A stretch of DNA of 64,000 nt, from contig JADNRX010000311.1 in NCBI GenBank assembly GCA_015501595.1, positions 1 to 64,000 of the forward strand. Reading direction: 5' to 3'. This stretch comes from Hymenopellis radicata. Lineage: Eukaryota; Basidiomycota; Agaricomycetes; Agaricales; Physalacriaceae. The notes under the pieces were generated by a model. It saw only the letters and a list, made by a program, of their open reading frames with translations, ran no database searches and had not been told where the DNA came from. The translations under genes and the position numbers were made by a program. Within the stretch, counting starts at the first letter, position 1; every line of letters begins with the position of its first letter. This document shows positions 4,229 through 45,795 of the stretch, piece after piece.

Positions 4229-5900
4229 TTAGTGCGTCTTGGTCGGATTTAAGCCGAGGTTGAGTGCTTCCAATATGGGACCGTCGTATGCGTATGACAG
4301 GCGCTCGACGAGGCGGACTTGTTCGGTGGAGCCGTGGAGGTGGTAGTGGTGCATGAGGAGAATATTATGCGGGAAATCCCAGAATTAGAGCAAGGCACGA
4401 GTGTATACCCGGGTGCACCGCGACCTGTCCGGCAAATACTTGGGTCCTAGAAGCCGGACTTGCCACCCGGCAGCACACCCGGGTACCCGCAAGTACTTGA
4501 CCCGCGGGTCAAGTACTTGGCAAGTACTTGCCTTTCAGGCAGGTATTTGTGACATCCGGGTGAGGCAAATACTTGCAGAAGTATTCACCTCCTGTCAGTG
4601 TTTTCGTGCGCGCCGACGACCCCCGGGCAATTGCACGGGGGTTATCGATAAGCACGAGCCATGAGCTTTGAGTCCCGGCTGCTTGAACAGACAAGCACTG
4701 GGATCAAGCAGCATGGGGGGATGGGTGGGGTTTGATAAGGGAGGTAAAGCGGGGTATGGTGAGGTCGAGATGGCGCCTGCGATAAATGTTGGACCGTTGC
4801 TAGGGCGTCGTGGCCTTAGCAACGGCCTTTCACAGCGTCCCAGGGCATCCAGCAAGTGTTGCGTGTTGTTGCTGCGGTAGATAAGAAAAGAAAAAGAAAA
4901 ACAGAAAGAGAAAACTATGTACCGTTCGAGGCTGGATGCGTCCACGACGCCCTCCAGCCCAAAAATGCGCGTTCGACAGTACGGCGGCCTCGGACAAGGG
5001 CTTACGCGTTGTGGAGGGTGGTCAGATTGGTGTCGTCGCGAAGACGAACACCAGAGGGCACCCGAACCATATCCCTGGTGCGCGAGGCGGCGCAAATCCG
5101 ACGGCTAGGCACCCGTATCCGCTGTTCCAGAGTACAGCGGCCTCATCCCGAGGGCTTACGCGTCGCGGATGTCGTCGCACTGGTGCCGTCGCGCAGACAA
5201 GCACCAGAATGCGCCCCGGAACGTATCTGAGGGCGCAGCGATTGGCGTGAAGCCAAACCGCACCAGAAAAGCGAGAGAACACGGAGAAAACAAGAAGAAT
5301 AAGCCCCAGAACAAGTTGCGGGGCCGACGAACACAACGTTAACGTCATGTTGTGGTGGTACGAGGCAGAAAGATATGATCACAGCGGATCGATCGTTATC
5401 CGGCAGGTGCCGGGACGCTCGGCCAGCTCGGCGATCACCGAAATTCGTCGGCAGCATCGTTTCTCAACGATGTTGAGCTCGTTTGAGCTCAAATAAAATG
5501 TAATAAATTCCCAAAAATTTGTATTGACCTACCTGCAGGTACTAGGCAAGTACTTGGGGCAAATACTTGCCTCGGCAAAGCCATACTTGCCATCTGTGTC
5601 ACCACCCGTGGGAAACAGATACTTGCCATCCGGGTGCCGGGTGCGGCACCACCCGGGTGATGCCGATACTTGCAAGTACCTGCAAGTACCTACCACTCGT
5701 GCCTCTCTCTACCCAGAATGAGTTTTTGAGGCTGACGAGCGTGGTCGTAGATGACCTCGAGGTTGGTGATGACTTTGTAAAAGTCTTTGTACCACTGGCC
5801 ATGTTCGTTGAGTTGGAAAGGACCAGCGGCATAGTCGATTTCGAATTCGTCGTAGTAGATGCGGGATATGAGCATGATGGTGATCGTGATCATTGAGCCC
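4229..5900 (-). pseudogene. Decayed gene split by a hAT-like element
   Basis: Minus-strand coding runs from about 5893 down to 5720 (residues such as NEHGQWYKDF and NLEVIYDHA). It resumes on the other side of the element 4386-5711, from 4377 to a TAA at 4229-4231, with residues NILLMHHYHLHGSTEQVRLV. Taking the element and one copy of its 8-base duplication out joins a frame that reads NSFWDFPHNILL across the site. The upstream half needs one small frameshift to reach that frame. The 5-prime side is cut at 5901 by a CATCAGG-type end. I do not recognise the protein. Confidence 0.5.
4386..5711. mobile_element. hAT-like non-autonomous element, CAAGTACTTG arms
   Basis: A complete 1326 bp element. 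Ends are TAGAGCAAGGCACGAGTG and, inverted, TAGAGAGAGGCACGAGTG, fitting the hAT YARNG rule, flanked by the perfect 8-base duplication CCCAGAAT (4378-4385 and 5712-5719). Both arms are arrays of CAAGTACTTG-type palindromes (4430-4585 and 5525-5695). Next to the left arm is the family hairpin at about 4604-4658 with core GGGCAATTGCACGGGG. The body carries GGGCTTACGCG twice (near 4998 and 5154) and a TTTGAGCTCAAAT tract near 5483. No transposase is encoded, so it must move in trans. It sits in the decayed gene 4229-5900. Confidence 0.85.
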
Positions 5901-6544
5901 CATCAGGAAACTGCCTTTAGCATCAAGGCACCTCAAGTTAAGGTCACTTCTTTGAGGCACTTAAGGCTGCCAGAGGACCTCAAGGTACCCCAGGCATCTC
6001 AAGGCACTAGACCACAGTCTTAAGATGCTTTGAGATGCTTTAGGTAGCCTTGAATCCATAGTTCGCACAGCATCTGCTTTGAGTAGATTTAAGTTAGCTT
6101 GAGGCTACAGTTGTTTGTAGAGTTCCTTGAGGCAAGCTAAGGCTTCTCAGTTCTAAGTCGGGAGTTCCATTTCGCGGAGGCAGTCACCACACAAAGGTGA
6201 GGCCACTAATACTCCATTTAATCATCTGAATCACAAATACAGGGAAGCAAGTCATGCACGATGGAAAGGGGAACAGAGATACATTCTCAGTCTGAATCAC
6301 AAGTAAGAACAAAAGAAGGTATTACATAGTAACTTGGCCGCCGCACAACGGCACCTCCCAATGAAATACATCCAATGAAGTTAATAATAACTCCTCTGTC
6401 TGCACTTGGAGATATTCCGTGCAGTAAAACATTGCGCTGTTCTGCCATCAACTGCGGTTGCATTGACAGAATGGGCTCAACGGGGAAGGATAGTAAGAGG
6501 CACCATCACTAGACATGAGCTGGATGGCCACGTCCGCCCAATTA
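5901..6544. mobile_element. Left end of a CATCAGG-type element (partial)
   Basis: CATCAGGAAACTGCC at 5901 matches the left ends of R1-R3 (CATCAGGAAAAG) and X (CATCAGGAAATGCCC). About 250 bases of CTCAAGG / CACTTAAG words follow, as in the left end of X. No matching CCTGATG end was found, so the right limit is unknown. From 6150 to 6540 I see nothing recognisable. Confidence 0.45.
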
Positions 6545-6821
6545 GAGTTTATAAGTCCGGTTGGGTCCAGTTGCGGCACCCAAATTTGGAAGGACCGGCA
6601 ACCGCAACCGGTTGCCCAACACGACTTTTTGCGTCAACCGCCACAACCGGTTGGGACCACTAGCGGTCGCGACCAGTTGAAACTGACATCTCAACATGCT
6701 CTCGCAGCATCATTTATGCCCGTTGGTGGCCCCCGAGCAATTGCGCAGGGGCTACCCAATGTGCATAAGCCACGGGGAGCAATGATGGAGGTGGTGGGAA
6801 TGATGAGAGTGTGGCGCGTCC
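6545..6821. repeat. hAT-like arm with AACCGGTT words and hairpin
   Basis: It begins TAGAGTTTATAAGTCCGG at about 6545 (YARNG form). The following 120 bases hold AACCGGTT palindromes and variants near 6557, 6607, 6640 and 6672, and then the family hairpin at about 6714-6776 (core GAGCAATTGCGCAGGGG). The order end, array, hairpin is that of the R arm in complete elements. The opposite arm is missing; the body is cut at 6822 by the next arm. Confidence 0.5.
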
Positions 6822-7012
6822 TAGAGACCTCAACGAGTCCGACGCGAGTCAGACTCGCGACTCGTGACGCGAGTACTCATGCCAAACTAAGTCCAGTTCG
6901 GACTCGCGTCGGACTCGACTCGCGATGACTCACGAGTCGTTGCGAGTCTACTCGCGAGTCCTTACCACGAGTCCGAGTCATCTTACACACTCACGAGTAC
7001 TCACGAGTCCAT
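6822..7012. mobile_element. Terminal arm of the hAT transposon
   Basis: It starts TAGAGACCTCAACGAGTC at 6822, followed by about 190 bases of GAGTC / ACTCGCGAGT words ending 28 bases before the stop of the hAT transposase. Read left to right it matches, word for word with scattered changes, the inverted right arm (R arm) of the small element 19282-20420. This ties the small elements to the transposase gene. The preceding 8 bases are GCGCGTCC. A copy of these beside another end was not found, so the far end of the transposon is unresolved. Confidence 0.65.
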
Positions 7013-7039
7013 GGCCGAATCTACATACAATTCACCTAA

Positions 7040-10000
7040 CTACAAAATTTCTACATCACTATCACTATCATCTTTGTTAGGCTTACGCGACGCCTTCGCG
7101 TTGAACAATCTAATAATGACATCCTCGGGCACCAGTCCGGACTTAAACCAATTCTTCAGAACCACCGAAGCACGTACCGAATCGTCCGATAAGTTGTGCC
7201 TATGCTTGGTGACGGTTAACCCGGCCACGGAGAACATACGTTCGACATCTGTTGAAGTAGCTAGAGACAAAATCAACAACGAAGATACAATTCGTTGCAG
7301 AGGAAAAGTCTTACCAGGCATGCTAAGGTAATCCAAGGCCATTAGTGCCAAGGCGCCTTGCATCGTCATCGTAATCTTTCCCGACTTATCCAGTGAATCG
7401 AGGAAGGCCGCTCAGTAACGGATCGGATCCGTACATGTTGGAACAGTTGGGGCGGCCAAGTACTCATCGAGTACATCGAGCTCCTGGTTTAGCCCGAAGT
7501 TGCCGATTTTTAAGAATAGATTCTCTGCAGCCGCCTGTGAAAAACTGTTAGAAAATGCGGCGATTCAGAGTGTCAGACGTACACCGGCAGTAATAACAAC
7601 AGGTGGTGGCGCGGGGACACGAGGCTTATAATACTTGTTCCATTCCTCGCGCGTATGCTCGATGGCTGCTGTAATCCACGAGGGCTGCCAATTGCGTGAG
7701 ATAAAGTAGGAGGTCTTGTATCGCGGCATCATAACTAACAACTCGATTAGGCAGGAAGTTACCAAAATAACGAATACATACTCATTGAAATGCACATCAT
7801 GATATTCTCGTCGGTCTTGGCGTAGTACTTGAGAATCGTTGCACGCCCGCATGCAGCGGCAGCATGAATAACCAGCAATTTGTCCGTATCGATAATGACC
7901 TTATCAAGGTTGTCAACAAGGGTGTCCATGACGGGAATGGCCTCGAAAATCAGAGGAATCTTAGACTGGCAGATATACTTGGATGCTTGCAAGAAGAGCT
8001 AGAAACCAATGCATAAGAACGAGTACAATTACATGACGGAAAATGTAGATACAAGGAGAAGGTCTCGGAGCTGGCGGAGCATCTCCCATTCGGCTGGCGT
8101 CAACTTGAACTTCGACATTTTCTTCTTCGCAACCTTGTTAAGATCGGGCTGCTTGCAGAAGCTATCGAGCGCCGGGGCCAGGAGTAGCGCGCGATCGAGG
8201 ACGGGGTGCAATGAGTTCCAGCGTGTCGCCACCATGCGGATCATCTTCTTGGGCTTCAAGTTGTGCTTGGGGCACTCCTCGGCGAGGATCAACTGCAGAT
8301 TGTGGCTGTTGAAGATCCGCTTGCCCAGCTTCATGATCTAAATTACTGATGAGTTATTGCAGACAAATAAATGCACCAGCAGACACACCTTCGTAACTGC
8401 TGCCCGTGCATGCTTCCTGTCATCGTCGGTGAGCTCCTGTACCTCCTTCAAAGCATCCGACAAGGTATCAAGGGCGGCCTCAAGCGTCGCTGCCTGCTCC
8501 GCATCTACCTCGTCCACGGCGGCCTGATCAACCTCATCCGGATCATCCTCATCCTCCTCGATATACAGATTTCCTTCCTCATCGTAGTCTGTGCTCGCAT
8601 CGTAGTCATCCAAGCCCTTCTTGATCATTTTTTTTCGAAATGAACTGGCGCATGCATGCCTGCTGTCAGTCAGTACAGCTCGGCAACATGTAATGTATGT
8701 TTACCTTTACAGAGAGGTCATTGATATGCCCCACGCAGCCTACGAAAGTCGCGCGACCAGCAGGAGAAGTCGCTGGAAGCTTCTTTTCCATACTGTCAAC
8801 TGTGGCGGGATTGATGTTGGCATTATCGCCACAGAACCCGAGGAGCTTCATGATAATATCGAAATCCTCAGCGCAGTCGAGCGTTCGTTTACCGAGATAT
8901 TCAGCAGTGTGGCGCTTATGCAGCCTGTAATAAATTAAATGTGAGTCAGCGAAGTAGATACAATGAAGGTGAAAGGACATACAGAACCATATCCAGGTGC
9001 ATAAGATCAATGGCACACTTCTCGCGGCTAAAGAACACGAGAGCAATTCCTTGACTGGAGCGCTTTCCGCCTGATGCCCAGCCATCAAAAACCATATGAA
9101 GACGCCCCAGAACATCATCCTTCAACACGAATTAGAGAAGTCAACACAAAAAATGCAAGCAACGTACTTTCAGTTTCTTGCGCACGATGACTTTGGTCAC
9201 CTCGTAAGTTTCTTTGACGTCTTTTGACAGAGTATTGGCGGAGAAGACGCGCGCCTTCGCATTGTTCATCGTGACAATTGACCGCATCGGGTTGAACTCT
9301 GCAATAGCGAACGGGCATTGGCACAGGCAGATCAACTCGACAAGATGGTAGCGCAGACGGCCATCCGAATACGTTAAGCCACGGGCGAAGGGTTCGATGG
9401 AAGATTGTTGCTGGACGACGGTGGGACAATGCTGGACATGACGAACGAGGTTACTAGTCGACTTGTCGGTAAAATCTCAATGGACGACTAGATCCGGTCG
9501 CCTATGAACGAGGTGAGATGCAGTAAAGAAGCACAAGCCAAACTTACAATTTGCAGACGAACACCTGTTGATATTCGCCATTTTCACCGGCATTCTCCAC
9601 CCACTCGACTGCTGGGGCGCTGAAGTGAGTGTAGCACTCAGAGCTCCAACGAGCGACGAGCTTTTCTAGGGGTTAAATCAGCACCAAGAAAGCAGGTTGA
9701 GTTAGTACACTTACTCAAGCGTTTGTCCCAAAACCCACGGGAGTCTTCGCCCTCTTCATCGTCACTGGGCATCTCGGAGACGCCTTCAGAGACACCTTCT
9801 GAAACCAACTCGATGGTATCCTCGACGACCTCGACCTCCACACCTGCAACCTCCGACTCCGCCTCAGACTCAGACGGGTCAGGCTGCTTCTTCTTTCCAC
9901 GACCACCAGAGGCCTTTTTGCCTCCGCGTGAGCTCGAACGTGGACGCTTGGTAGGAGGCTTGGAAGACTTCCCGACAGTTTCGGCACGCTTGCGCTTGGG

Positions 10001-10063
10001 GAGATCGCTGAGTGAGGGGGACGAGACGGAACGACGAGGATGACGGGGAGGCATTTCTGTCAT
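7040..10063 (-). pseudogene. hAT-family transposase with two nonsense codons
   Basis: A cut-and-paste DNA transposase of the hAT superfamily, acting in the nucleus on ends with 8-base duplications. I read 11 exons, approximate limits 9715-10063, 9548-9665, 9168-9501, 8983-9119, 8705-8924, 8389-8659, 8053-8337, about 7795-7998, 7583-7734, 7315-7534 and 7040-7260, with introns of about 45-61 bases. The order is: a basic, Ser/Lys-rich N-terminus with an acidic tail; a BED-type zinc finger (VFVCKL ... NLVRHVQHC); a DDE core (VFDGWASGGKRSSQGI, CGDNANINP, CVGHIND); an acidic insertion; MVATRWNSLHPVL; and a C-terminal dimerisation region, ATSTDVERMFSVAGL spliced across the last intron, then KHRHNLSDDSV. 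TGA at 9477-9479 and at 7412-7414 replaces in-frame codons, the second almost surely Trp. Other frames stay open, so the damage looks recent. Confidence 0.85.
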
Positions 10064-10512
10064 GTTGAAAATGGGTGATCAAAGCGACTATAAGTATGAT
10101 TAGAGTGAGTCGACTAAAGTAGAAAAATAGACCAACTTACCAGGTTAAGCACCGAAAGAGCGCTATCGATGGCCAGGCAGAAGGATACAGCGGCCTGGAG
10201 AGATATTACTGGATGATAAGAAGGAAATGAAATCGATTTACCAATGATTGAGACCGAGTATTCGTCTCCTGCGCCACAGAGACCGAATGACACACTAGTG
10301 GGGAGAAAAACCATTGAAATCAGAATGAAACAGGTAAGAAAGACCCACCAAATCTCGGCGGCGCAATAAAATGCCACTATCGATGACCTGGGCGGTCTAT
10401 GCATTCCCCATTCGAAGGCCCGCTGACAATCGCCAGCAAGGAGAAACTGGCAATCGCCAATCTCTAGTGAGCCGGGCACCCGAAATCCATCGATAAGTGT
10501 CGTCCTCAGCAC
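10064..10512 (-). CDS. Hypothetical spliced exons upstream of hAT
   Basis: On the minus strand good splice signals bound small exons. One donor follows GCCGAGATTTG near 10350; exon pieces at about 10242-10294 and 10141-10206 encode SVSFGLCGAGDEYSVSI and then a hydrophobic stretch ISLQAAVSFCLAIDSAL; a last donor GTAAGTTGG lies near 10140. The next acceptor lies just before the hAT start codon. They may be 5-prime leader exons of the transposase transcript or the end of a separate gene that includes the exon array to the right. No family recognised. Confidence 0.3.
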
Positions 10513-10945
10513 CTAGCGGCTGGTCCACCGCACTTCGACATCCGTGTTTGCTGCTGGCAATCGCTTGACAGCGGAGAAATGGCAATCGCCATATTCCCAT
10601 AAGGTCGCGGTCCGAGGTCGACAAGGCACTCCAGTTGGAGCAGACGATGTTGCTGGCAATCGCCAGAGCAACGAGACTGGCAATCGCCATGTCCAAGGAG
10701 GGAGTCGGTGGTGGGAAGGAAGACGAGGGCGCTTACAAGGCCCAAACAAGTGACTGGAGTCACGTGATGTGACCTGTAGCTGAAGCGGCGGGGACACTCA
10801 GAGTGGCCTCAAAGGTGGTATCGGAGCGAGATTCACACCAAGGAAGATCAGGACAAGTAGAATACAATTGTTATCATTTCGAGTCAAATTACTGATTTGT
10901 TACGGAATTGTACATAGATAAATGTAAGTAATGATATCGTAGTGG

Positions 10946-11999
10946 GCGGGACATCGGGGCCGGAGGGCGGGAAACCCCAAATGACAGCAGAGTCTTTGAG
11001 CGAGCATATTGAAGGCATTAATGACAAAACTGCACGATTATTCATTGTGAAATTAGCGAGATATGTATAAATTGGAGAAACTTACCTTGGAGATCGGTTA
11101 ATGGTCGGGATGTCGGTGCCGGCGGGCGGAACACCTCAAACGACAGCGGAGTCTTCGAGCGAGCGTATTGAAGGCATTAATGACAAAACTGTATGGTTAT
11201 TCATTGTGAAAATACCGCGATATGGATAAATTAGAGAAACTTACCTTGGAGATCGGTTAATGGTCGGGATGTCGGTGCCGGCGGGCGGAACACCTCAAAC
11301 GACAGCGGAGTCTTCGAGCGAGCGTATTGAAGGCATTAATGACAAAACTGTATGGTTATTCATTGTGAAAATACCGCGATATGGATAAATTAGAGAAACT
11401 TACCTTTGAGGAAAGGCAAGATCGGTTAGTAGTCGGGATGTCGGGGAAGAAGGGCGGGACCACCCAGATGATGGCAGAGTCTTCGAGAGACTGTCTTGAA
11501 GGTTCGAACGCTAAGGACAACAGGTCAGTACGGTAGGAAATGAGAGAGATATGTATAAATTGGAGAAACTTACCTTAGAGATCGGTCAGTGGTCGGGACA
11601 TCGGCATTGGAGGGTGGGACACCTCAAATGACAGCGGCATCCTCAAAAGACTATCTTGAAGGTTCGAACGACAAAACTGCACAGTTATTCATTGTTAAAT
11701 AACTGAGATATGGATAAATTAGAGAAACTTACCTTAGAGATCGGTCAGTGGCCGTGGCGTCGGCGGCGGAGGGCGGGACCACCCAAACGACGGTACAGTA
11801 TTCGAGTGTACCTATCCACAGTTCGTATGCTGCAGGGGATCAAGCAGGATGGTCAGAATTGAGGGATAGACCAAGCAATTTATCGAACGCACCCAAATGT
11901 AAGTTCAAGATCAGGTAGCGACGGCGGGGGCGGCGGTTGTGGGCGGGCTTGCCCAAACGACAGCGGTGTCGTCAGGAGTATGTAGTAGTCGTGCATATG
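10946..11999 (-). repeat. Tandem array of seven exon-plus-intron units
   Basis: On the minus strand a unit of about 159 bases repeats. Each unit is a segment of 97-107 bases with clean splice sites: acceptor CAG or TAG before it and donor GTAAGTTTCTC or GTGCG after it. Segment limits are about 10946-11029, 11086-11188, 11245-11347, 11404-11510, 11574-11676, 11733-11829 and 11893-11999. All can be read in one matching frame with a core like DSAVVWVVPP, though TGA replaces the Trp in three copies. Segment lengths are mostly 1 modulo 3, so splicing all of them together would not hold a frame. No known domain recognised. Confidence 0.6.
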
Positions 12000-12990
12000 C
12001 TACAAGAGACCGAGCGGTACGGTCAGAAATGAGTGCGATACGGACAAATGAACAGACCTACCTCAGAGCAAGATGAAAAGTTAGACGACGGGCGCAGCGA
12101 CGGCGGCCAGGAGCGCCAAGACGGTAAAGGCAGTGATATAATGTATCTGGCAATCGCCAATGCGCGGTGAGCATCCAGCATGTCAGCGAGAGAGAGTCCC
12201 CGATGAGATCTATACAGATTTCGATTAGTAGCTAGATGATCAATAAAACTTACCAAAAATTAATAGATCAGGGAGAGAGTCGCGAAGCATCGCTGAGCCA
12301 GCGGCGCAGGCCGCTGCGACCTCCCGCCCTGCCGACCAAAATCCAAGATGTTGAGTACGCCAGACGGACCAGGAAGGAAGAGCCGATGGCAATCGCCATA
12401 CGACGGCGGATGGCAATCGCCAGCCCGCTCAGCGCCGGATCCAGAAAGAGAGTGTGGTGATGGAGGTGGTAGAGGATGAGGCGCGATAGCGCAAAACCCT
12501 GTTTTGGGAAGGTGAGTCATCATAATGACTCACCTTCCCAAAGTGACTTGGTCGATTTGGGCTTGAAGGTGAGTAATCATCATTACTCATCTTCTGTGGC
12601 TGTGCTAGAATCGTCTAGATTCCAAGGCCACGGGTACCCCTCCTTCAGCAGAACGCCCAAGTGCCGTTTGCTACACACGGCGCCCAAATCCCGCTGTCGT
12701 CCTCAAGATCATCGACACTGGTGAGTGTTTTGTTTCCTCTCTCTTTCTTTCCCCTCTTTCCCTTTCTCTTGCGGCTTGGCGATTGCCATCCGCCGCTGCT
12801 TGGCGATTGCCATCAGCATTATTTTCATTGACGACCAGCAGGCCAGCAACGACGACGGCGCGATTGGAGGCGGTTTGGCGATTGCCATCCGCTGCTGTCT
12901 TGGCGATTGCCAGCAGCGCTGCGTGACGATTGTCAAGCGGATGGAACTTGTGTCGGCGGGGCACAGCGCCTGATGAGCGCCTCTTGCGCC
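12000..12990 (-). other. Upstream exons of the array; palindromic DNA
   Basis: A further minus-strand exon, from about 12220 down to a donor at 12061 (CTCTGAG then GTAGGT), feeds the array, and a donor GTAAGTTTTATTG near 12255 suggests one more exon upstream. Reading frames are poor in Trp/Cys and not recognisable. The rest, 12500-12990, is palindromes and GGCGATTGCC words with a CT-rich tract near 12730-12770. Confidence 0.25.
12503..12542. repeat. Perfect 18-base inverted repeat
   Basis: TTTGGGAAGGTGAGTCAT, a 4-base loop CATA, then the exact complement. A diverged copy (AGGTGAGTAAT / ATTACTCATCTT around CATC) lies at about 12563-12591. It sits between the two opposed sets of GGCAATCGCC words and may be the centre of an inverted structure. 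Confidence 0.8.
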
Positions 12991-14115
12991 TAGACATGTC
13001 CATGAGTGCCCACCCGAGTGCACTCGCACTCGCGGGGCGGGTCACTCGTGGCTCGAAGGCACATATCCGCACTCGCGCAACACCCGAGTACTTTACTCGG
13101 GTGTGACACCCATTCACGGGTGTCTTACACACCCGAGTGTGTCGACACTCGGGTAGGATGGCGGGTGTACACGAGTACACCCACCTCCGTACCACTCACT
13201 GTCATTTCATGCACCGTCTACATCCCCCAGCAATTGCGAGGGGAGTGGAGCGGTGCATGATGCTACCGACAGGAGGGGCATGGGAGGTGATGGGATGGAT
13301 GGAGGGTAATGGCAGACGATTCGGTGTATGGCGCCTCATTCGAGGGCTTACCCGTAAAGCAGCAATAGCTAGAATGAGTGTTTAGTATAGCAAGAGATTT
13401 GACGGCGTCTGGAAACGCGCCGACACTAAAAAGAAAAAGCAATACGTACAAAATCCACCACGTCGCCAGCAGACGACGTGGCGGCCCATATCCACCACCC
13501 CGCTCTTCAAGCACGCTCAACAGCGCGGCGGGTCGCATCAGGCCAATAGATCTTATTGCCGTCGCCATCGTTTATCGTGTGCTGCCCGTTTGCGGGGCTT
13601 ACGCGTCCAGGAGCAGCTGCTGGCTGCTGTCGTTTCCGTGGAGACGACTTAAAGTCGTCTCCTGGTCCAGTAACGCCGACTCAAAGTCGAGCGCCGATGC
13701 GGATGTTGCCGACTCAGAGTCGAGCAACAGTTCTATAGTCGCCGACGTAAAGTCGAGCGACGGGAAGGGAGAGATTTGGGAGAGACGGTGACAGGAGGAG
13801 AGAGAAAACACCCCCGATCACGCTTACGCGTACTTTCGGGATACGGCCCGATCTGCAGGAATCACGAGAAATACTTATGTACGTTGTTTTTTAGCTCAAA
13901 AAAATTGAAATAAAATTGGTAAAAATTCGCAAAAATGCGAGTGTCCACCCGGGTGTCTGCCAGTGGGTACTCGCAGCCCAGAGGCAGACACCCGCACTCG
14001 GGTGGACACCCGCGGTGACACCCCACCCTTGTGAGGTAAACACTCAGCACCCGGGTGTTGAGTGCGGGTACACCCGCGAGTACCCGCAAACACCCGACAC
14101 TCGTGGACATGACTA
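12991..14115. mobile_element. hAT-like non-autonomous element, CACCC/GAGTG arms
   Basis: A complete 1125 bp element flanked by the perfect 8-base duplication CTTGCGCC (12983-12990 and 14116-14123). Ends are TAGACATGTCCATGAGTG and, inverted, TAGTCATGTCCACGAGTG. Arms at 13009-13180 and 13927-14098 are dense arrays of ACCCGAGTG / CACCCGGGTGT. The family hairpin lies at about 13207-13262 (core CAGCAATTGCGAGGGG). Other body parts are a second hairpin CCACGTCGCC..CGACGTGGCGG (about 13457-13485), GGGCTTACGCG near 13594, palindromes such as GACGACTTAAAGTCGTC (13644) and GCCGACTCAAAGTCGAGC, and an AT-rich tract before the right arm. It is almost identical to 42977-44101. No coding capacity is evident. 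Confidence 0.9.
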
Positions 14116-14185
14116 CTTGCGCCTCTTCTCTATCAGCGGGAGGAGCCTGCCAGATCGCTAACCGGATTTTTAGAGTCCAGTGAGC

Positions 14186-16418
14186 ATGCCTGCACAGACA
14201 GTATGTATTTTTGAAGTCATTCAACTGCTGCGACTGCTAATTGCGCCACAGCCCCACCAGATTGCCTACCACAAGGACATCCTCGCTAATCCTGACTGGG
14301 TCACAGCGAAAAAAAATCCAGGCCAACGTACGTTTCATTCTTGTCAAGTTTACTCTATACTAATAACAATCAGCGTTTAGTATCCATGACGGGAAGTTTG
14401 GCGCCGTCCTGATGGAGTCGCCCTTCATTGTCACGACGCCAAATGCTACATGGATTCCAAACCCTTCGCGCAGCCCGAATGAGATCCTGCAGCTTCGCGA
14501 TGATTACTGGTATGGGCCTGAGGATCCTCTGCTCTGGCCACAGGAAGATGTACCAGAAGCGCCTTGGCTCCCTTGTCTCCTGCGCAATTTTCCCAAAGAT
14601 GGCTCCCTAGACAATAAACTCGCTATTCTCTGGGATTCCCTGTCCCCTAGTCAGCAGTTCCACGAAGATGTCAGTTTTCGTCGCGGTTTTGGGTACGCCG
14701 CATCTTTGTTCGGACAGGATCTGGAAGATTGCCTCTCCACTCTGAATTCTATGTTTGCTTCCTGCAATTATCCCCCCAGAACGATGCAGGCCGTCCACCG
14801 CCACACCACGACCATGTCGGTTCTCAGCCAGACTCTTTGACTGACGCCTCACTCCCTCGCTCGTTTCTCGGAGAGGATTCGCGCCTTTCAGCGCCTCGCT
14901 CGACAGTGTGTAGCTCTGAAAACGTTTATGACGCTGCTCTTCCCCACTGGTAAAGGCATATTTTCCCACCTCCAGAAGATGCGTTTCTGTGGGAATTATG
15001 TAGGGTGTTTCACATTCGACGTGGCGCTGGGAAATCGCCTCGTGCAATGCGGAATTCCCGTCTAGTTGCTTCGTGACTTGGAACTGGTGGGCCAGTTTCG
15101 GGTTGATACCCTGCTTCCCATCACGTACGCGAAAGACGTGCTCGTCACCTCACTCCCCAAGTCGCCAATTCCTCCTTTTTGGGAGGGTCCTAGATGGGGG
15201 CTGCAGAAAATTACTGCCATCACTTCCGCAATTGAGCGCAATCAAGGCTCCTTTGCCAGTCCAGCTAATTATAGTCTCTCTGGTGCTGCTCGTCCCCAGG
15301 CAATTTTACCCGCTGCTTCCTCTTCTTCGCGCCCAACGGCCCGTCCTTCAACACGTGGCTCACCAAGTGAGTGGAATTGATTGAAGACCTCTTAATTTCT
15401 AATGTATTTCTTTATAGCGAAGGTCATTGCGTATACGACGCACACATTGCTACCTGCAATGGTGTCTACTTGGCTCCACGTCGCGAATGTAATCGACGAG
15501 CAGGAGTACCTCCAGGACTGCATCAATAAACCCGCCGAGCGATACTTTGTCCCCCGCCCCGATCTCTTCACCAACGCTTCGCAGCCGAAAGTCGCCAGCT
15601 ACATGGAAACCTGGCTTCGTTTGCGAGGAATCGTGCTGGGTTGTATGGGGGAGGGTGAACCGCAGGCTCTCTCCCACAGGGCATGGCAGCTTTGGCTGGA
15701 TCGTGGAAAGTTAGAAATCGAGGTGACGCAGGGAGGGAAGACTGTGAAGAGGAAGAATAAGGAGAAAGACGAGGTGGATGTCTTGATTTCTGCAGCGAGG
15801 AAGCAAGGTCCAGTAGATTTGGCGCCTGAGGCGATGTGGAGGGACAGAAAGTTCGATTTCGATGGAATGCTTGGGCCGCACCATTCTCGCGAGATTCTGT
15901 GGGAGTTGAACGAGCTCGGATTCCGGTTTGAAATGTGCATGTTGGATTCCACCTTGACCACTCTCGCCTCCCACCACGAACATTACAATCGGATTCGGCG
16001 TTGTTTCCCCATCGGCCACGCGCCTCTCGAATTGGCCGACTTGGGACAGGCGAATCAAGGCCTGGCGCATTCTGACTGGTTTTCGCGCGCCCCGTTTGTC
16101 TATGCTCTTCACCATGTGATGCGGTTTTGGAAGAACGATGTCGTTCACGCGGCCAGATGGTTAACCGATGAGCAGTACTTCAAGATTGATGAGAAGCGGG
16201 GATTATCACCAGCCGATTTCGAAGACTTTGAGCACAAGGTCATCAAGATCTACATCTCTTCATTCCTCACAGTCTACGGCCGGACTCCCCGCATTCCGAT
16301 GATTCTTTCGCACCAGCCGCACACTAAGTGGAAGCAGCCGGTTTACCATAGGATGGCAGTTGGGCCGAACGGAGTCTGGATGCCAGAACGCGAGTCGGAC
16401 AGTTTGTACAATTATTAG
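14186..16418 (+). pseudogene. Decayed five-exon gene, copy B (unknown family)
   Basis: A spliced gene of unknown function with good exon logic: exons at 14186-14200, 14252-14327, 14374-15366 and 15418-16418, joined by introns of 46-51 bases with GT..AG ends that all preserve frame. The third block is open except for two in-frame stops, TGA at 14838-14840 and TAG at 15063-15065; the second falls in GIPV-stop-LLRDLE. The last exon is fully open for about 333 codons and contains RPDLFTNAS, a basic Lys-rich stretch, the motif WELNELGFRFEMCMLD and a His-rich core. I think it belongs to an expanded family of agaric hypothetical proteins; the gene at 1364-3755 may be another member. The intact last exon suggests loss was recent. 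Confidence 0.6.
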
Positions 16419-16576
16419 TTTTCTTGTAGTTACAGTTTGGACGCATTTTTTGTATATCATATCAGCGCCATTGTACTTAGAATTGTATTTTTTTTATTGT
16501 ATTGCCGGACTTTTTTTTTGTTGAGCAGTTTTTGAAGGGGTAGGGGACTTGGGACAATTAGGTTCCCTAATCTTAA

Positions 16577-16667
16577 GCGAGCGTAGCCAAGCTGCTACAA
16601 GGTCAGTCTACATTTGGTCTGACTTGGGATTTGGAGAGGGCTCCTGTTCGAGCCCCGGCCATGCCTC
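16577..16667 (+). repeat. tRNA-like sequence (A and B boxes), SINE or pseudogene
   Basis: A box TAGCCAAGCTG at 16584-16594 and B box TGTTCGAGCCC at 16645-16655, with spacing like a type II (Leu/Ser-like) tRNA. The anticodon-arm stem GTCAG/CTGAC encloses an oversized loop, and the acceptor stem does not pair. It is therefore a tRNA pseudogene or SINE head rather than a working tRNA. Confidence 0.45.
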
Positions 16668-16684
16668 TCCTTGCGCAACATTTT

Positions 16685-16877
16685 TACTGGTAAAATTTCG
16701 CGAGTCCTTAGTGTACTGACTCGCGTAAGTACTCACGCTCCCCTGGCTGATAATCAGACTCGCGACCAGACTCGTGACTACGTGACTCGCGAGTCACATG
16801 AGTCCGAACGCCGATGTGCCCGAAGCGAGTCGAGTCACTGGATGACTCGGTGACTTGGTGACTCGGTGAGGTCTCTA
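16685..16877. repeat. Solo L-type arm of GAGTC family
   Basis: A GAGTC / ACTCGCGAGTC array ending GACTCGGTGAGGTCTCTA at 16877. Inverted, it aligns closely with the left (L) arm of the element 19282-20420, including the words GGGCACATCGGCGTTCG. It is followed by GATCGCGC, which does not match the 8 bases before the arm at 6822. It has the right type and orientation to be the far end of the hAT transposon, but the missing duplication argues against a simple 10 kb element. Confidence 0.6.
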
Positions 16878-17374
16878 GATCGCGCTGCTTGTCGAGAATA
16901 GAGACCTCAACGAGTAATACTCGGATCAGACCCGCGATCCGCGAGCCGAGTACTCGAGGCCGAAAGGGCCTACTCGTGATCCGCAAATGACTCGACCCGC
17001 GTTGACTCACGAGTCAAACGAGTCGAGTACTCGCGAGGTTGGCGAGTACTCGCACGCGATCCGTCATCAACGGATCTCGCGGATCAGCCCCCTCAAACTC
17101 ACCCAAAGTTCATTCATGCCCGGTGAGCATCCCCGGGCAATGGCACGGGGACACTCAGCCGTGCATGAGTCACCTGTAGCTGTAGGCATTTGCGTCTTTC
17201 CCTACACTTGCTAGGAAAACCTCAATACAAACATCCTGCACTTGTCAGGCTGACAGTTGCTAGAGATTATCATCCTTGTAATCTAAGACCACATGGTCAG
17301 GTACAAGGCATCATGTGTTCAGGTACTAAGGCACATCTAGGCACATAATACATTAGGTAATCAGGTACCACGGT

Positions 17375-17432
17375 TAGGGTCCGGTTAGAGTTAGGGGTTA
17401 GATGTCAGGGGTTAGAGGTTAGGGTGGTTCGG
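17375..17432 (+). repeat. Degenerate TTAGGG-like tract
   Basis: TTAGGGT, TTAGAG, TTAGGGG, TTAGATG, TTAGAGG and TTAGGGTGG follow in about 58 bases. TTAGGG is the usual telomere repeat in many basidiomycetes. The tract is too short and degenerate to be a telomere; it lies inside a mobile element. Confidence 0.45.
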
Positions 17433-17590
17433 GTGCGGAGCGGGGAAAGACGTCAATTACTAAATAAAGGGACGATAATTTTGAAGGGTACTAACATATA
17501 ATACTCCTTCACTTGCCCTAAGTGAAGGTTAAAGATTGTGTTAACTGAGGAAGTAGTAATAAAAGGCAATTGAGTTCAATAGTACTCATA

Positions 17591-17670
17591 GACTAATGGT
17601 GTAGTGGTTATATTACCTGCTTAGCCTGTTATTAATCTAGTGGTCACAGGTTCCATTCCTGCTGATGGCA
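17591..17670 (+). repeat. tRNA-like sequence (A and B boxes)
   Basis: A box TGGTGTAGTGG at 17597-17607 and B box GGTTCCATTCC at 17649-17659, 41 bases apart, as in a tRNA. The B box has C for the usual G, and the anticodon and acceptor stems do not form cleanly. Probably a SINE head or tRNA relic carried within the AT-rich insert. Confidence 0.45.
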
Positions 17671-18699
17671 ATTTTTAATAACATAATGTGGCTGTGTGGC
17701 TATGTTCATTGCATTATTAGGATTAGGTCATCAATTGCCTAAAATGGCTGTGGCTGTGCTCTCTAGCAAGTGAAGGGCAATTGTACTGAGGTTATCCTAG
17801 CAACTGACTGCGCAAAAAGGCTAATTTCTACAGCTATGGCTCCATGAGTACGGACTGAGGGTGGTAGTGGTGGGGGTGATGGGGTGATGGAGGGAGTGAT
17901 GGTGTCAGTGGTGGTGCTGGTGGTGGTGGTATGGTGGTGGTGGGATGGGAGTGAATGAAGAAGAAGGAAAAAACACTCACCCAACACTGTTCTTGCCTCG
18001 GCCCTCCATCCCGCCGCCACCACCATCGCCGCGTAATCTTGTCATTGGTGTTCTCATCGACGCGTTGTCGTGGACGCGTTGTCGATCTCCTCATCGACGT
18101 CGGTGGGGTCCAGCGTCGTCCTAGTGCCGGTGTCCGGTGTCTGTCGCGTCCGTCGTCCAGTCGTCGTTGTTGTGTATCCTCTGCTGCTGTCGCAAAGACA
18201 GCAGCAGCGGGCCCAGCACAGAGCCGAGGACTCAGATCCACCACCTGGCATGCAGCCAAGGTGGAATCAAACACCCCAAAGGCGGCCTGACAGTCGTCAG
18301 AGCGGCAGAGGCGACAATCGTCGCACTCTGGGTGGTGGTAGTGGTGGTGAAAAGAAGGAGAAACGACCCGATCGTGTGCTGACGCGGCCCCTCGGTGTTT
18401 GCTGGATCGTGAGAATTTGTAAGAAATTCACGCGAATGTCTCGTTTGGGCGACACAAGGGCCTGCTGAACTTGTAAAAAATTTGTATATTTAGTTTAAAT
18501 ATATATCTACATTATTGCGAGTCAAACCGAGTACTCGCGATGAGTACTTGTGCCTCCAAGGCCGTACTCGCGATCCTTCTCTGATCCGACCCGTTATCGA
18601 TCCGCGGATCAAATGGGTCGAGTAGCTGAGACCCCCGGCCGGATCGAGTACCCGAGTATCCGCATGACCCGCGAACTCGTTGAGGTCTCTAGTCGAGAA

Positions 18700-19273: not shown

Positions 19274-19281
19274 AGCGAGAC

Positions 19282-20420
19282 TAGAGACCTCAACGAGTCA
19301 CCGAGTCACCGAGTCATCTGGTGACTCGACTCGCGTCGGGCACGTCGGCGTTCGCACTCGCGTGACTCGCGAGTCACGGAGTCATGAGTCTGGTTGTGAG
19401 TCTGAGTTTCGGTCTGTCGACCGCGAGTCATCACACGGTGACTCGCAAATATTTAGAGATATATTTTAGTTGAATTTACAAATTTTTTGCAAGTCAAACG
19501 GGCCCTTGCGTCGCTCAAACGAGCCATGCGCGACTATTTCGCCTGATCTGGCGATCCGGCCCGAGATCCGAAGCGACGCGTAAGCGTCTGATCGGGTGGT
19601 TTCTCTCTCTTGTAACCACCACCACGACCACCTGGGGAGCGACGATTGTCGCCCCCGCTGCTCTGACGATTGTCAGGCAGCCTGTGGGGTGTGTCTTTGG
19701 CCTCGGCTTTGTGCCGGGCCTGCTGCTGCTGGCTCTGCGCTAGTAGCAGAGCTGGAGCACCACTGGACTACCTACGGACACTCGTTGCTCGACTTCAGGT
19801 CGGCGACGACGCTATCGGCGCTCGACTTCAAGTCGGCGCCGACATGACTGACGCTCGACTTTGAGTCGGCGTCGATAGGACGCGTAAGCCCCGCAAACGG
19901 GCAGCACACGATCCAATCACCGGATTGCCGACACCAACTGGATTGCGGTGCCGACGATGGATGAGAATGAGGATGACGACGACGACGACACGATGATGAT
20001 GCGATGAGGAGGGGGATGCGATGCGATGAGGCGGATGACGCGAGATGGACGCGACGACGAGTCGTTCGGAGTCGACCACCACCACCACCACCATCCTCCA
20101 CCACCACTATCCTTCCACCCCCACCCCCACCATCCTTCCACCATCACCCCCACCATACCCTCATGCCCAGCTGACTGTCCCCGTGCCATTGCCCGGGGAT
20201 GCTCGCTGTGCATGAATACTTGGGGGTGTATGGACTCGCGAGTACTTGTGAGTATCCGAGATGACTCGGACTCATGGTGAGTACTCGCGAGTGGACTCGC
20301 GATGACTCGTGAGTCATCGCGAGTCGAGTCCGACGCGAGTCTGAACTGGACTTCCTTTTGAGTGAGTACTCGCGTCACGAGTCGCGAGTCTGACTCGTGA
20401 TGGACTCGTTGAGGTCTCTA
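19282..20420. mobile_element. hAT-like non-autonomous element, GAGTC arms
   Basis: A complete 1139 bp element, perfect duplication AGCGAGAC (19274-19281 and 20421-20428), ends TAGAGACCTCAACGAGTC. Both arms are GAGTC/GACTC arrays (19300-19448 and 20225-20405). The right arm matches the arm beside the hAT transposase at 6822, which makes this the clearest derivative of that transposon. The hairpin lies at about 20160-20215 (core GTGCCATTGCCCGGGG, read inverted). The body has three GCTCGACTT..AGTCGGCG palindromes (19788, 19823, 19853), ACGCGTAAGC twice and a CGACGATTGTCGC pair. Confidence 0.9.
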
Positions 20421-20428
20421 AGCGAGAC

Positions 20429-24906: not shown

Positions 24907-26004
24907 TAGACCTGGGCACGAGTGTCAGGTGCTTAAGTGTGCACCCAGGTGCACTCGACACTCACACCCGGGTGTCGAGTGTTTGCCGGTGCTGGGTAGG
25001 GTGTCAGCATGGGTGTCTACCCAAGTGCGGGTGTCCGGCTTTAGGCCGCGAGTACCCGTGCTCAGACACCCGTCTAACACCCGCCTAACACTCGCATTTT
25101 TTCCGCATTTTTCTGGTATTTTTTTGAGCTTAAAAACTACTAAAAAAGATATCTTTGGTGTGATTCGGCGTACCGGGCCGGTATCTGACTGTACGCGTAA
25201 GCGTATGATCGAGCGTCTCTCGTTCATTCCTACCACCATCACCACTGCGTCGCTCGACTTTAAGTCGGTGACGACAGCAGCATCGCTCGACTGCATGTCG
25301 GCGACCTCGTGCTCGACTTTGTGTCAGCATCGATGTACCAGGAGATGACTTTTAAGTCGTCTCTACGGGAACAATAGCAGCAGCCGCCGCTGCAGGATGC
25401 GTAAGCCCTGCAAACGGGCAGCAAGCAAACAGCACAAGGATACAGAGTCGTGACGCTACCGCCACACTCAACGGTGCGCTTCAAGAGCGGGGGCAGTGGA
25501 TTTTGGGCCGCCACGTCGTCTGCTGACGACGTGGCGGGTTGGTACATTTCAATGTTCTATTCTTTCTTCTCGGCGGCGTTTACAGACGCTGTCAATAATA
25601 CTGACCATTTCTACTATTACATTTATTGCGGGTAAGCCCTCCAACCGACGAGGCACCATACTCAATCCCATCCCTTGTCACTCCTTCATCTCACCCACAC
25701 CCTTCGCGATGCTACCATCATGCATCGCCGATGCTCCCCTTGCAATTGCTGGGGGATGCAGGCAAGGCATGAGTCACTCGCGAGTTGGGATGGAGGAGGT
25801 GGAGGAGGAGGTCAAGTGTACTCATGTACATCTGCCACCATACATAAGTGTTTGCACACTCGGGTGTGCAGAACACTCGCGAATGGGTGTGCACTCGAGT
25901 GCCACATCTGGGTGGCAGTCGAGTGCGGGTGTCCGGCTTGGAGCCGCGAGTGACCCGCCCAGCGAGTGCGAGTGCACCCGGGTGGGCACTCGTGCCCAGG
26001 TCTA
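24907..26004. mobile_element. hAT-like non-autonomous element, CACCC/GAGTG arms
   Basis: A complete 1098 bp element with identical 18-base inverted ends TAGACCTGGGCACGAGTG and an 8-base duplication with one change (CAACCCAC 24899-24906, CAACCCGC 26005-26012). Arms are ACCCGGGTGTCGAGTG-type arrays. The order is that of 12991-14115 read backwards: TTTTTTGAGCTTAAA near 25120, ACGCGTAAGC near 25193 and 25396, palindromes GCTCGACTTTAAGTCGG (25251), the hairpin CCACGTCGTC..GACGACGTGG (25510-25540), then the family hairpin at about 25722-25774 (core GCAATTGCTGGGGG). It differs in sequence from 12991-14115 nearly everywhere, yet keeps the architecture. Confidence 0.85.
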
Positions 26005-27340: not shown

Positions 27341-27346
27341 GGGTGG

Positions 27347-27946: not shown

Positions 27947-28046
27947 TATTATGATGTCAAAGCTGTATGAGAAACGCCGATCAATCTGACTCCATTTTGA
28001 CGAGGGACGTCAAAAGAATGTCTGCTCCGATGTACGTTCGATGCTA

Positions 28047-42110: not shown

Positions 42111-42142
42111 ATATCTATGCTCTGGTTCCCAATATTATGCTA

Positions 42143-42921: not shown

Positions 42922-45795
42922 TAGGGTAGACGCTGTCCAGACACGCTCTAGTTCCAAGAGAAGTAGCAAACCCGACTAGACATGTCCATGAGTGCCCACC
43001 CGAGTGCACTCGCACTCGCGGGGCGGGTCACTCGTGGCTCGAAGGCACATATCCGCACTCGCGCAACACCCGAGTACTCTACTCGGGTGTGACACCCATT
43101 CACGGGTGTCTTACACACCCGAGTGTGTCGACACTCGGGTAGGATGGCGGGTGTACACGAGTACACCCACCTCCGTACCACTCACTGTCATTTCATGCAC
43201 CGTCTACATCCCCCAGCAATTGCGAGGGGAGTGGAGCGGTGCATGATGCTACCGACAGGAGGGGCATGGGAGGTGATGGGATGGATGGAGGGTAATGGCG
43301 GACGATTCGGTGTATGGCGCCTCATTCGAGGGCTTACCCGTAAAGCAGCAATAGCTAGAATGAGTGTTTAGTATAGCAAGAGATTTGACGGCGTCTGGAA
43401 ACGCGCCGACACTAAAAAGAAAAAGCAATACATACAAAATCCACCACGTCGCCAGCAGACGACGTGGCGGCCCATATCCACCACCCCGCTCTTCAAGCAC
43501 GCTCAACAGCGCGGCGGGTCGCATCAGGCCAATAGATCTTATTGCCGTCGCCATCGTTTATCGTGTGCTGCCCGTTTGCGGGGCTTACGCGTCCAGGAGC
43601 AGCTGCTGGCTGCTGTCGTTTCCGTGGAGACGACTTAAAGTCGTCTCCTGGTCCAGTAACGCCGACTCAAAGTCGAGCGCCGATGCGGATGTTGCCGACT
43701 CAGAGTCGAGCAACAGTTCTATAGTCGCCGACGTAAAGTCGAGCGACGGGAAGGGAGAGATTTGGGAGAGACGGTGACAGGAGGAGAGAGAAAACACCCC
43801 CGATCACGCTTACGCGTACTTTCGGGATACGGCCCGATCTGCAGGAATCACGAGAAATACTTATGTACGTTGTTTTTTAGCTCAAAAAAATTGAAATAAA
43901 ATTGGTAAAAATTCGCAAAAATGCGAGTGTCCACCCGGGTGTCTGCCAGTGGGTACTCGCAGCCCAGAGGCAGACACCCGCACTCGGGTGGACACCCGCG
44001 GTGACACCCCACCCTTGTGAGGTAAACACTCGGCACCCGGGTGTTGAGTGCGGGTACACCCGCGAGTACCCGCAAACACCCGACACTCGTGGACATGACT
44101 AAACCCGACGAGGTCAAATCAACTCCACCCGCAGCTAAAAAAGGGAAGAATCCTCCAAAAACTACCTCTCCACCGGGACAAGCAGACAATCTCGACGGAT
44201 CAAGCTCTCAGGAGTGTAACCCGATGGAGGAACTGCCAGGGGAAGTCGACCTGGAGGAATGGGGTACGCCAGAGTCAGTGGAGAAAGCCATCCAAGATGA
44301 GCTGCAGGAGGATCGACATTCGAAGCTCTTGATTTCCGTCGACGACGAACTAGTGCAGAAGTTCGTAGCGGGGTACGCCGAAGACCGCTCCTTCAGGGAG
44401 GCCTACGCCTGGGCAGCTCCTCAGCGGAGCAACCTTTGACACCGTCTCACTATAGACGTGCGGAAAGTGGACTGCTCTATTTCGCGGATGCTGACTGGAA
44501 AATGCGTCTTTGTGTACCTAGAAGCATGGTGAACTGGGTCCTTAACTGGATCCATAACACGGCGAGTGAAGGTGCTCATGGCGGGGCGCGCAATCTGCTA
44601 AGTCGACTCCGGGGCATCTTCTTTTGGCCGACTATGGCTAAGGACTCGAAGTTCTTCGTACAGACCTGCGACTACTGTCAGAAGACAAAAGTAGATCGCT
44701 CGGGAAAGGAAGGAGGATTACGCCCAGCGCCCATTCCGGCTCGACCATTCGAGACGGTCTCTTTGGACCTGATTACGGGTCTTCCAGCTTCAGGAGTTGA
44801 GAAATTCACCGCCGTTCTAGTCATTGTCGATAAACTCACCAAATTCGCCCTGATGATACCCACGCACGACGAGTTAAGCTCCGAGGGATTCACACGCTTA
44901 TTCAAGGACTACGTGGTCGACACCTTCGGATTACCAGCGAAAATTATCTGCGATCGAGATAAATGATGGACGAGTGCGTTCTGGAAGGCAGTGTGCTCCT
45001 TCTATGGCACTAAGCTAGCTGTGTCAACCGCTCACCATCCTCAAACGGACGGACAAACCGAGATTTTGAACGCGCGTATCGAGGTCATGCTACGTTCCTA
45101 CGTCTCTGGAAACCGTAGCGACTGGGCTAGGTGGTTGGGCGAACTAAAGTTCGCTTACAACTCCAGCCGTCACTCGTCTACTGACACCAGACTGGACGAG
45201 CTTCTCTTAGGGTACCAACCCGCTGTCTCAACGGTGCCATACGCCTGGAATCTGGCTTGCCCAGCGGAGTCTGAGATTAACAGCCGTATGGGGGAAGAAT
45301 ATGTGCGAGACAGAGAGTTGCAACGAGGATTGGCTAGGGACGCGCTGGTCACTGCTCAAGAACGACAGGCAGTCTCATACAACCAAGGACGTAGACCCGT
45401 GAAAGAGATTAATGAAGGCGACCTAGTACTAGTAAACGCGCATTCTCTGCAGCTGGTAGAAGCCGAAGGAACGGGGAAGAAGTTGGTGCAAAGAGGACTG
45501 GGACCTTTCGAAGTCATGGAGAGGATTAACCCTCAAGTCTACTGCCTGCGTCTACCGAAAGACTATCCGATGCACTCAGTCATCAATCTCGTACACCTAA
45601 AGAGATACCGACCATCTCCCGCGTACTTGGGCGAACGAGAAATAATGCCGTCAACCAGGGTAAGCATCAGAGCGTTCGAGGAATACGAAGTCGAAGCAAT
45701 TCTAGGCCATCGATTATCCTCGAAGAAATCTGGTAGCAGGAAACAATACTTGGTCAGATGGAAAGGTTGCGGGCCGGAAGACGACACATGGGCTG
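42922..45795 (+). pseudogene. Ty3/gypsy pol continued: integrase and chromodomain
   Basis: The gypsy reading resumes at 42922 (VDAVQTRS linker), is interrupted by the hAT-like element 42977-44101, and goes on from 44102 (one copy of the AACCCGAC duplication removed). Seen in order: linker; the integrase zinc-binding region (WIHNTASEGAHGG ... CDYCQKTK); the catalytic core with DLITGLPAS and AHHPQTDGQTEILNARIE; and a C-terminal chromodomain (VEAILGHRL ... YLVRWKGCGPEDDTW). Integrase inserts the cDNA; the chromodomain can guide it to chromatin. There is a one-base slip near 44437 and a TGA at 44964-44966 where Arg is expected. Coding is lost at about 45795, where a gag on the other strand abuts. 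It is not functional. Confidence 0.85.
42977..44101. mobile_element. hAT-like element, second copy of the 1125 bp type
   Basis: The same length as 12991-14115 and differing at only about five positions by eye, e.g. near 43079, 43300 and 43431. The flanking duplication is AACCCGAC (42969-42976 and 44102-44109), perfect. It interrupts the gypsy linker. Near identity between copies 30 kb apart, each with its own duplication, means recent movement of both. Confidence 0.92.

Follow-up and report, generated by a model that had tools for sequence, protein, structure and literature searches.

In the hAT transposons Hermes, Tol2 and Ac, short repeats are spread over the last 100-200 bp of both ends. 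The BED fingers of Hermes bind AAGT sites, whose layout differs between its two ends, and at the left end of Tol2 the palindrome AAGTACTT follows the terminal inverted repeat (TIR) (PMC10368747). Among mushrooms, non-autonomous members of the hAT families MarorhAT-4, -10, -11 and -12 of Marasmius oreades share TIRs with an autonomous one (PMC9674265); the term "subterminal" is absent from that article, and its passages on these families describe no word classes. In the CMITEs of corals, which are of the piggyBac type, the internal region is better conserved than the TIRs and is of unknown origin (PMC2872659), and the V domain of short interspersed elements (SINEs), an internal domain common to otherwise unrelated mobile elements, is found in MER6, a Mariner-derived miniature inverted-repeat transposable element (MITE) (PMC6887750). 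Here, we describe hAT MITEs from a 64,000-nt stretch of Hymenopellis radicata, a physalacriaceous mushroom (contig JADNRX010000311.1, positions 1 to 64,000; hereafter, the window) and from the rest of the 75.5-Mb genome. In both arms of these elements, a short and mostly palindromic word is repeated to form an array.

The H. radicata elements resemble Hermes, Tol2 and Ac in this layout (the CAAGTACTTG of the element at 4386 includes the Tol2 palindrome) and the MarorhAT families in being mushroom hAT elements. They differ from the former in that several word classes occur in one genome and that, within one TIR family, the word has been rewritten at multiple positions in either end, next to transposase genes of two groups. 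Unlike in CMITEs, the elements with a shared interior are hAT elements with ends of unrelated word classes, the shared module carries a covarying hairpin, and one likely recombinant element was seen; unlike in MER6, where a SINE domain sits in a Mariner-derived MITE, the sharing is among hAT MITEs. Judging from the sequence comparisons presented below, two processes probably operated: families traded bodies, and in one of them both arms were rewritten in place and in parallel through coevolution with the DNA-binding domain of its transposase. No report of a matched word change in hAT arms was recognized, by title or start of abstract, among the matches listed in a search of open-licence literature; subscription papers lie mostly outside that literature, and absence of an earlier description is unproven.

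The pattern TAGA-N7-ACGAGT occurs 1314 times in the genome, compared to 210 occurrences of the pattern read backwards. Elements were collected from the window, from 30 loci around end matches, from 20 regions with facing ends, from 20 regions chosen by their hairpin and from transposase loci. The sampling was not random, the loci being taken in contig order among the first 100 matches listed and 20 regions being selected for facing ends. The facing-end regions (two ends of the same or similar type) yielded an element flanked by a target site duplication (TSD) in 17 of 20 cases (none in L087, L092 and L101). The hairpin-chosen regions, which favoured unusual cores and were short, with some elements cut, yielded a complete element in 9 of 20. 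From 50 candidates, three unrelated ones (two in L013 and one at window position 37936) were removed, and L049:410-1569 and L030:1501-2769 were added, giving 49 elements; the one from L030 has exact ends without an 8-bp duplication. Locus L013 contains two small TSD-flanked elements (519-851 and 876-1294, with ends TAGGGTGGCGCAGTAAACC and TAGGGTTGCGCAG) that apparently belong to another family.

In the 47 retained elements, the two TIRs agree at 13 or more of 17 positions, and element size is 0.4-2.0 kb, with one exception of 3.2 kb. Fifty pairs of known ends are flanked by 8-bp TSDs with at most one mismatch, and the matching short ends are followed by subterminal word arrays. A transposase with the hAT C-terminal dimerisation domain (PF05699) adjoins the same ends, namely a GACCTCA arm at window position 6822 and in C504, and the Cys/His motif of a BED zinc finger was recognized, by eye only, in several of the hAT transposases. 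The elements are hAT elements and probably non-autonomous ones (MITEs).

It had been predicted from the window that both arms of an element carry the same word, and this proved correct in the wider sample: once the outermost 18 bp of every end had been trimmed, a class-by-class comparison of left-arm and right-arm k-mer profiles gave the own-class opposite arm as the best match in all nine word classes. Class-mean left and right arms were reciprocal best matches in 18 of 18 comparisons with 5- and 6-mers and in 17 of 18 with 7-mers (nine classes, both directions). None of 200,000 label permutations reached the observed class-mean agreement, a test in which the division of the GACCTCA family into types I and II relied on GGATC in both arms, which favours agreement. 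For individual arms, the opposite arm of the same element beat every arm of other TIR families, on either side, in 84 of 98 cases. The 14 failing arms were five GACCTCA-I left arms, both arms of L091, L104 and L119, and three of the four GCATGCC arms; GCATGCC (416 bp) is the class with the most dissimilar arms, the words on its left side being other than those on its right. The nearest opposite arm in another element belonged to the same TIR family in 92 of 96 cases, and GGATC counts in left and right arms correlate at 0.92 (arm by arm, 14 GACCTCA elements). Independent variation of the two arms, which the original prediction had named as its refutation, was not seen: all 50 TSD-flanked pairs of known ends belong to one family and none is mixed, a result that the choice of loci favours. 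Facing end pairs taken irrespective of TSDs comprised 73 same-family and 24 mixed pairs, with overlapping loci counted more than once. An AAAGAC/CAAGAC arm-like array upstream of a B1-type hairpin in L115 (C319) may represent another word class, the ends of which were not recognised.

In the GACCTCA family, the word itself has changed. The sample comprises 14 elements (nine of type I and five of type II) that are related, so that counts of alignment columns are not independent events. MITEs of both types have the outer TIR TAGAGACCTCA, and their ends agree at 17 of 17 positions in 12 of 14 copies. When types I and II are compared, 96% of 45 pairs, for the left as for the right side, show a better alignment of same-side arms than of either opposite-side pairing. 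In the left arm, columns with GACTC in type I read GATCC in type II in 150 of 520 comparisons (29%) versus 118 of 6561 (1.8%) at other columns; in the right arm, the numbers are 154 of 440 (35%) versus 98 of 7012 (1.4%). The change is thus 16 (left) and 25 (right) times as frequent as at other columns, and GACTC columns that remain unchanged in type II (126 left and 47 right) are fewer than those replaced by GATCC. At the consensus level, the swap in the right arm takes in both halves of a dyad, GACTCGCGAGTC becoming GATCCGCGGATC. Same-side arms of the two types are homologous, and several GACTC columns in either arm became GATCC in place.

The two types also accompany different transposase genes. 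The window gene next to the arm at 6822, the frame of which is broken by a TGA in the BED region, is 96% identical to C504 at the C terminus. The type I arms contain no GGATC and 13 (window 6822 and C504) or 10 (window 16877) GAGTC, and the type II arms (C140, C799, C505 and C80) contain 4-6 GGATC and 3-4 GAGTC. The type II genes C140, C799, C505 and C80 show C-terminal identity of 66-73% over 37-74 residues to the type I gene of the window; the C140 stretch stops at the contig end, without a TIR. Ends on the transposase side read ACGACT or ACAACT in type II and ACGAGT in type I. Identity of the BED pieces is 0.53 between C504 and either C140 or C799 and 0.75 between C140 and C799; the BED piece of C775 is 54% identical to that of C504 and 75-89% identical to the others. 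The flanks of the candidate element 6822-16877 (GCGCGTCC and GATCGCGC) do not match as a TSD, and both the pairing of these ends and the connection of the 16877 arm with the gene are inferred.

Matched rewriting is real in this one family, and the pattern is best read as arms that track the specificity of the transposase. Several points weigh against this reading. The type II label is based on GGATC content of the left arm, which makes the left counts partly circular and leaves the right arm as the independent side. GACTC columns also changed to TACTC, in 42 comparisons on the left and 81 on the right, where it follows GATCC in frequency, and to GACCC (63 left and 25 right), and at the consensus level, the exact swap occurs at only two left and four right columns. 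Left-arm and right-arm distances within GACCTCA-I are uncorrelated (r = 0.15, p = 0.27). The idea that the inner box of the TIR always equals the array word was rejected, as the own class was best in only three of nine cases. The BED pieces were joined across an intron by eye, only two genes whose arms are known enter the type II BED comparison, and for most transposase loci a single end was seen. It is also conceivable that coevolution played no part: the words of types I and II could have diverged through drift or bias, with transposases that bind both, and the GAGTC and GAGTAC words retained in type II arms fit this view. Since one and the same two-base change is found repeatedly, in several columns of either arm and at the excess given above, we regard such drift as unlikely.

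Other transposase loci adjoin ends and words of other classes. C752 and C543 adjoin GATCACC ends and C1295 adjoins GACCACC ends; C574, C683 and C556 have GATGTCC ends and CACTCG; C658 has an ACGGATC end and CGGATC words. Both arms are known only for the transposase-bearing elements C540 (TSD TGGACGAC) and C907 (TSD CTGCTGTC), which have words of the ACCCGT type, and C1122, with ATACCG/ACGGTA in both arms and flanks that do not match as a TSD. Among 13 loci searched ca. 2.5 kb upstream of the BED exon, no convincing arm on the N-terminal side was found. A claim that BED fingers match words across all transposases was dropped, the comparison covering one type I and two type II genes with known arms and C775 lacking a known arm. 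The suggestion that the words follow DNA-binding specificity fits the transposase-word pairs found, and the GACCTCA change accompanies a different transposase group; the connection is one of association. Locus L039 (C540) was rejected as an autonomous GCAAGGC element: its transposase lies in a nested element (L039:850-4866, TIR TAAGGAATAGCGCGGG), and for this reason the idea that the right body block served as a transposase leader fell. A 3.2-kb element, L039:5119-8360 (TIR TAGCGTTTGAAAGTCAGG, TSD CTAACGGA), and this 4.0-kb transposase element are nested in one GCAAGGC MITE; the 3.2-kb element contains a hairpin core and stretches ca. 80% similar to GACCTCA bodies.

The interior of the elements, as opposed to the arms, does not follow family lines. 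Right body blocks, defined as bases 200-500 counted from the right end, were compared in pairs among 44 elements. Body blocks of GCAAGGC and TGAATAGC elements are 80.8% identical over 395 bp and those of GACCTCA-I and GTTTACA elements are 79.0% identical over 324 bp, with unrelated ends in both cases. Body identity reaches 0.75 or more in 12 cross-family pairs (eight GCAAGGC-TGAATAGC and four GACCTCA-I-GTTTACA), with arm identities of at most 0.57 and 0.59. Conversely, in 42 same-family pairs with body identity below 0.60, arms average 0.80 and 0.80 (minimum 0.64 and 0.66). As in CMITEs, the interior is more alike than the ends in both cross-family combinations, and windowed identity declines at the arm borders and in the variable middle. 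The bodies form two groups, B1 (GCAAGGC, GATCGGC, TGAATAGC and the C1122-like L109) and B2 (GACCTCA, CCTGGGC/CATGTCC and GTTTACA). In L117, a GTTTACA arm (91% over 191 bp) gives way, between positions 200 and 240, to a hairpin block of GACCTCA-II (84% over 90 bp); other GTTTACA elements carry another hairpin block; L117 looks like a direct recombinant. In L109, a C1122-like arm (86% over 97 bp) sits on a B1 body (80% over 416 bp). Ends and body have different histories, the body being the hairpin block together with the right block as far as the AT tract. The original prediction of whole-array replacement on a common body found no support in that form: where one body occurs with differing arms, it is as a rule the body that has moved and not the arms that have evolved anew, and the evidence favours bodies passing between families with different ends.

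Some observations argue the other way. L117 and L109 are not TSD-flanked complete elements; same-family pairs with body identity of 0.75 or more include left-arm identities down to 0.54; in two GCAAGGC-TGAATAGC pairs, alignment of the right arms slightly exceeds that of block shuffles (p of 0.015 and 0.05); and GCAAGGC arms correlate with the body at 0.58 and 0.59 versus 0.41 with each other. One could suppose that arms evolve fast on constrained bodies, which would make module exchange unneeded. Bodies of different families do align at 75-81% in places, hairpin pairing is maintained, and GCAAGGC/CCTGGGC and GACCTCA-II/GCAAGGC arms are still homologous by side (80-93% of pairs). However, arms within a class remain at ca. 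0.80 in the 42 pairs with diverged right body blocks, arms are near the null level in the cross-family pairs with the closest bodies, and L117 contains a breakpoint. We consider fast arm evolution without exchange to be quite unlikely, and exchange of bodies is the reading used below.

The body that seems to have been exchanged contains a conserved hairpin. Its core pattern occurs 681 times in the genome versus once for the control (both strands, with many palindromic sites counted twice) and is present in 42 of 45 elements longer than 900 bp and absent from three; segments from L089 and L090 fold no better than their shuffles. In 38 distinct sequences from these 42 elements, 440 of 455 paired cells hold standard pairs, compared to fractions of 0.27-0.55 when the partner strand is slid. 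Compensatory pairs are found at four of 12 positions (in 2, 9, 10 and 5 sequences); since the structure was derived from the same related sequences, they represent few independent covariation events. Among L039-L082, where transposase loci were mostly seen at one end, the exact core is present only in L039, L040, L041 and L049. In L039, it lies in the GCAAGGC MITE and once more in the nested 3.2-kb CGTTTGA element; in L040, L041 and L049, the elements are MITEs. A hairpin of ca. 50 nt with compensatory changes thus seems to be carried by the travelling body module.

The two arms of an element share, on the whole, vocabulary but not order. Global identity between left and right arms of one element is 0.56 versus a shuffle null of 0.51, and every within-class pair, in all six classes compared, gives a better alignment of same-side than of opposite-side arms. 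Own arms are therefore not closer to each other than to the same-side arms of relatives, as conversion-driven concerted evolution would require. Against this stands the fact that own left-right alignment beats the block-shuffle null (p of 0.01 or less) in 20 of 45 elements, although this null is lenient and breaks words; a faint remnant of an older long inverted repeat between the arms is possible. A vocabulary shared without its order speaks for one reader acting on both arms in trans and against conversion between them.

In a purely concerted scheme, gene conversion or copying would homogenise the arms and a new word would spread from arm to arm. Such a scheme accommodates the words shared by both arms of every class, the correlation of left-arm with right-arm identity (Spearman 0.65 over 188 same-class pairs, compared to 0.05 and 0.19 for arms with body) and the above-null alignment in 20 elements. 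Conversion would nevertheless leave alignable arms, which the left-right identities do not indicate, each side retains its own start across families, and the side preference holds in all six classes; we find a purely concerted scheme improbable. The concerted evolution suggested by the original prediction stands insofar as both GACCTCA arms had their word altered in place; conversion from one arm to the other is unlikely, and instead of wholesale arm replacement, body exchange is favoured. It is extremely improbable that the arms arose later as functionless expansions of a simple-sequence or satellite-like kind, as their richness in repeats might imply, given that the arrays begin at the TIRs and are kept between copies by side, that the same words recur next to diverged transposase genes and that replacement is word-specific.

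We propose the following account of parallel rewriting and of body exchange. The word is a putative binding site of the BED finger of the transposase mobilising that family. Since both arms must suit one protein, we infer that they change together, and a changed BED specificity may have driven parallel substitution, site by site, in the GACCTCA arms. Families may have traded bodies through recombination or template switching, as could occur during gap repair after excision; abortive gap repair is a source of rearranged elements. A fuller joint account, in our view somewhat less likely than not, would have a hAT transposase change its binding word, with a two-base change made in parallel at several positions of either end and the outer TIR fixed, and a hairpin module pass between unrelated hAT families, escaping dependence on any one transposase.

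The features of the window are listed in Table 1. The six elements first noted there, five and a second copy of the 12991 element, do have 8-bp duplications at their boundaries, perfect in five cases, and the hairpin lies beside one arm, its core 228-255 bp inside one end, with the AT-rich tract beside the other. The proposed ends TAGA-N7-ACGAGTS hold in general but not in 12991-14115 and its copy, where the left end has ATGAGTG and the right end begins with TAGT; the final S fails in 16899-18691, which has ACGAGTA and ACGAGTT. The word GCTTACGCG, thought to be common to all, is absent from 16899-18691 on either strand and is not universal.

Table 1. Mobile elements, hairpins and transposase gene of the window.
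Feature	Positions	Strand	Details
MITE, TIR class GCAAGGC, body group B1	4386-5711	+	CAAGTA (TACTTG) and CACCCG words in both arms; TSD CCCAGAAT
Conserved hairpin inside left arm border of the 4386 element	4605-4656	+	core 4621-4640
Truncated MITE, GTTTACA class	6543-6821	+	TAGAGTTTATAAGTCCGG, word CAACCGG; read directly; interrupted by the 6822 element
Candidate transposase-bearing GACCTCA-I element	6822-16877	.	arm from 6822: 13 GAGTC, 0 GGATC; other-side arm ending at 16877: 10 GAGTC, 0 GGATC
hAT transposase gene in exons	7043-10078	-	dimerisation domain in 7043-7411, PF05699 25.3 bits (cut-off 21.4)
MITE, TIR class CATGTCC, body group B2	12991-14115	+	CACTCG/CACCCG/ACACCC words in both arms; TSD CTTGCGCC
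MITE, GACCTCA-II	16899-18691	+	TIR as in the 19282 element; GGATC 6 left, 5 right, plus CGAGTA; TSD GTCGAGAA
MITE, GACCTCA-I	19282-20420	-	GAGTC 12 and 11 per arm, GGATC 0; TSD AGCGAGAC
MITE, TIR class CCTGGGC	24907-26004	-	CACTCG/CACCCG/ACACCC words; TSD with one mismatch, CAACCCAC/CAACCCGC
Second copy of the 12991 element, other site	42977-44101	+	own TSD AACCCGAC; bodies 98% identical
Equivalent hairpin cores	13224-13243, 17131-17150, 20179-20198 (-), 25736-25755 (-), 43210-43229		

As can be seen, the 12991-14115 element sits between the two ends of the candidate 6822-16877. Open reading frames at 14367-16415, near the transposase element, have no Pfam match; they have five relatives, four of them in H. 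radicata, the fifth being a weak match. One relative may lie on C505, which carries a type II transposase, and similar sequence adjoins the C504 copy, as judged by eye; the frames may be a second gene of a large GACCTCA element. The sequence GGCTTACGCG is also present outside the reported elements, at 23733, 23986, 24235, 31462, 36653, 38857, 39074 and 49396. Three copies beginning with TAGAGACAAGAAATCG, at 30047, 35242 and 47953, have a related hairpin (CCCCAAGCAATGGCGTGAGG) ca. 150 bp inside; a scan of 27000-52000 gave no matching far end with a TSD for them. The eight bases TAGATACC precede the start of all three, and the true boundary may be further out. Sequences resembling tRNA A and B boxes were seen by eye at 17590-17665 and 16600-16670, one of them within the GACCTCA-II element, and are possibly SINE-like; ARAGORN reported no tRNA for either, and the window had no match in Rfam at gathering scores.

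A transposase that changes its specificity must bring along ca. 20 word copies per element, at two ends and in many element copies, a process that is difficult to observe directly. GACCTCA-I and -II would be matched proteins and ends in one genome, with arms that can still be aligned, which makes the question testable. The hairpin module, if the joint account is true, would be a parasite of parasites that changes its ends, and its travels suggest that MITEs can outlive their transposase by trading ends.

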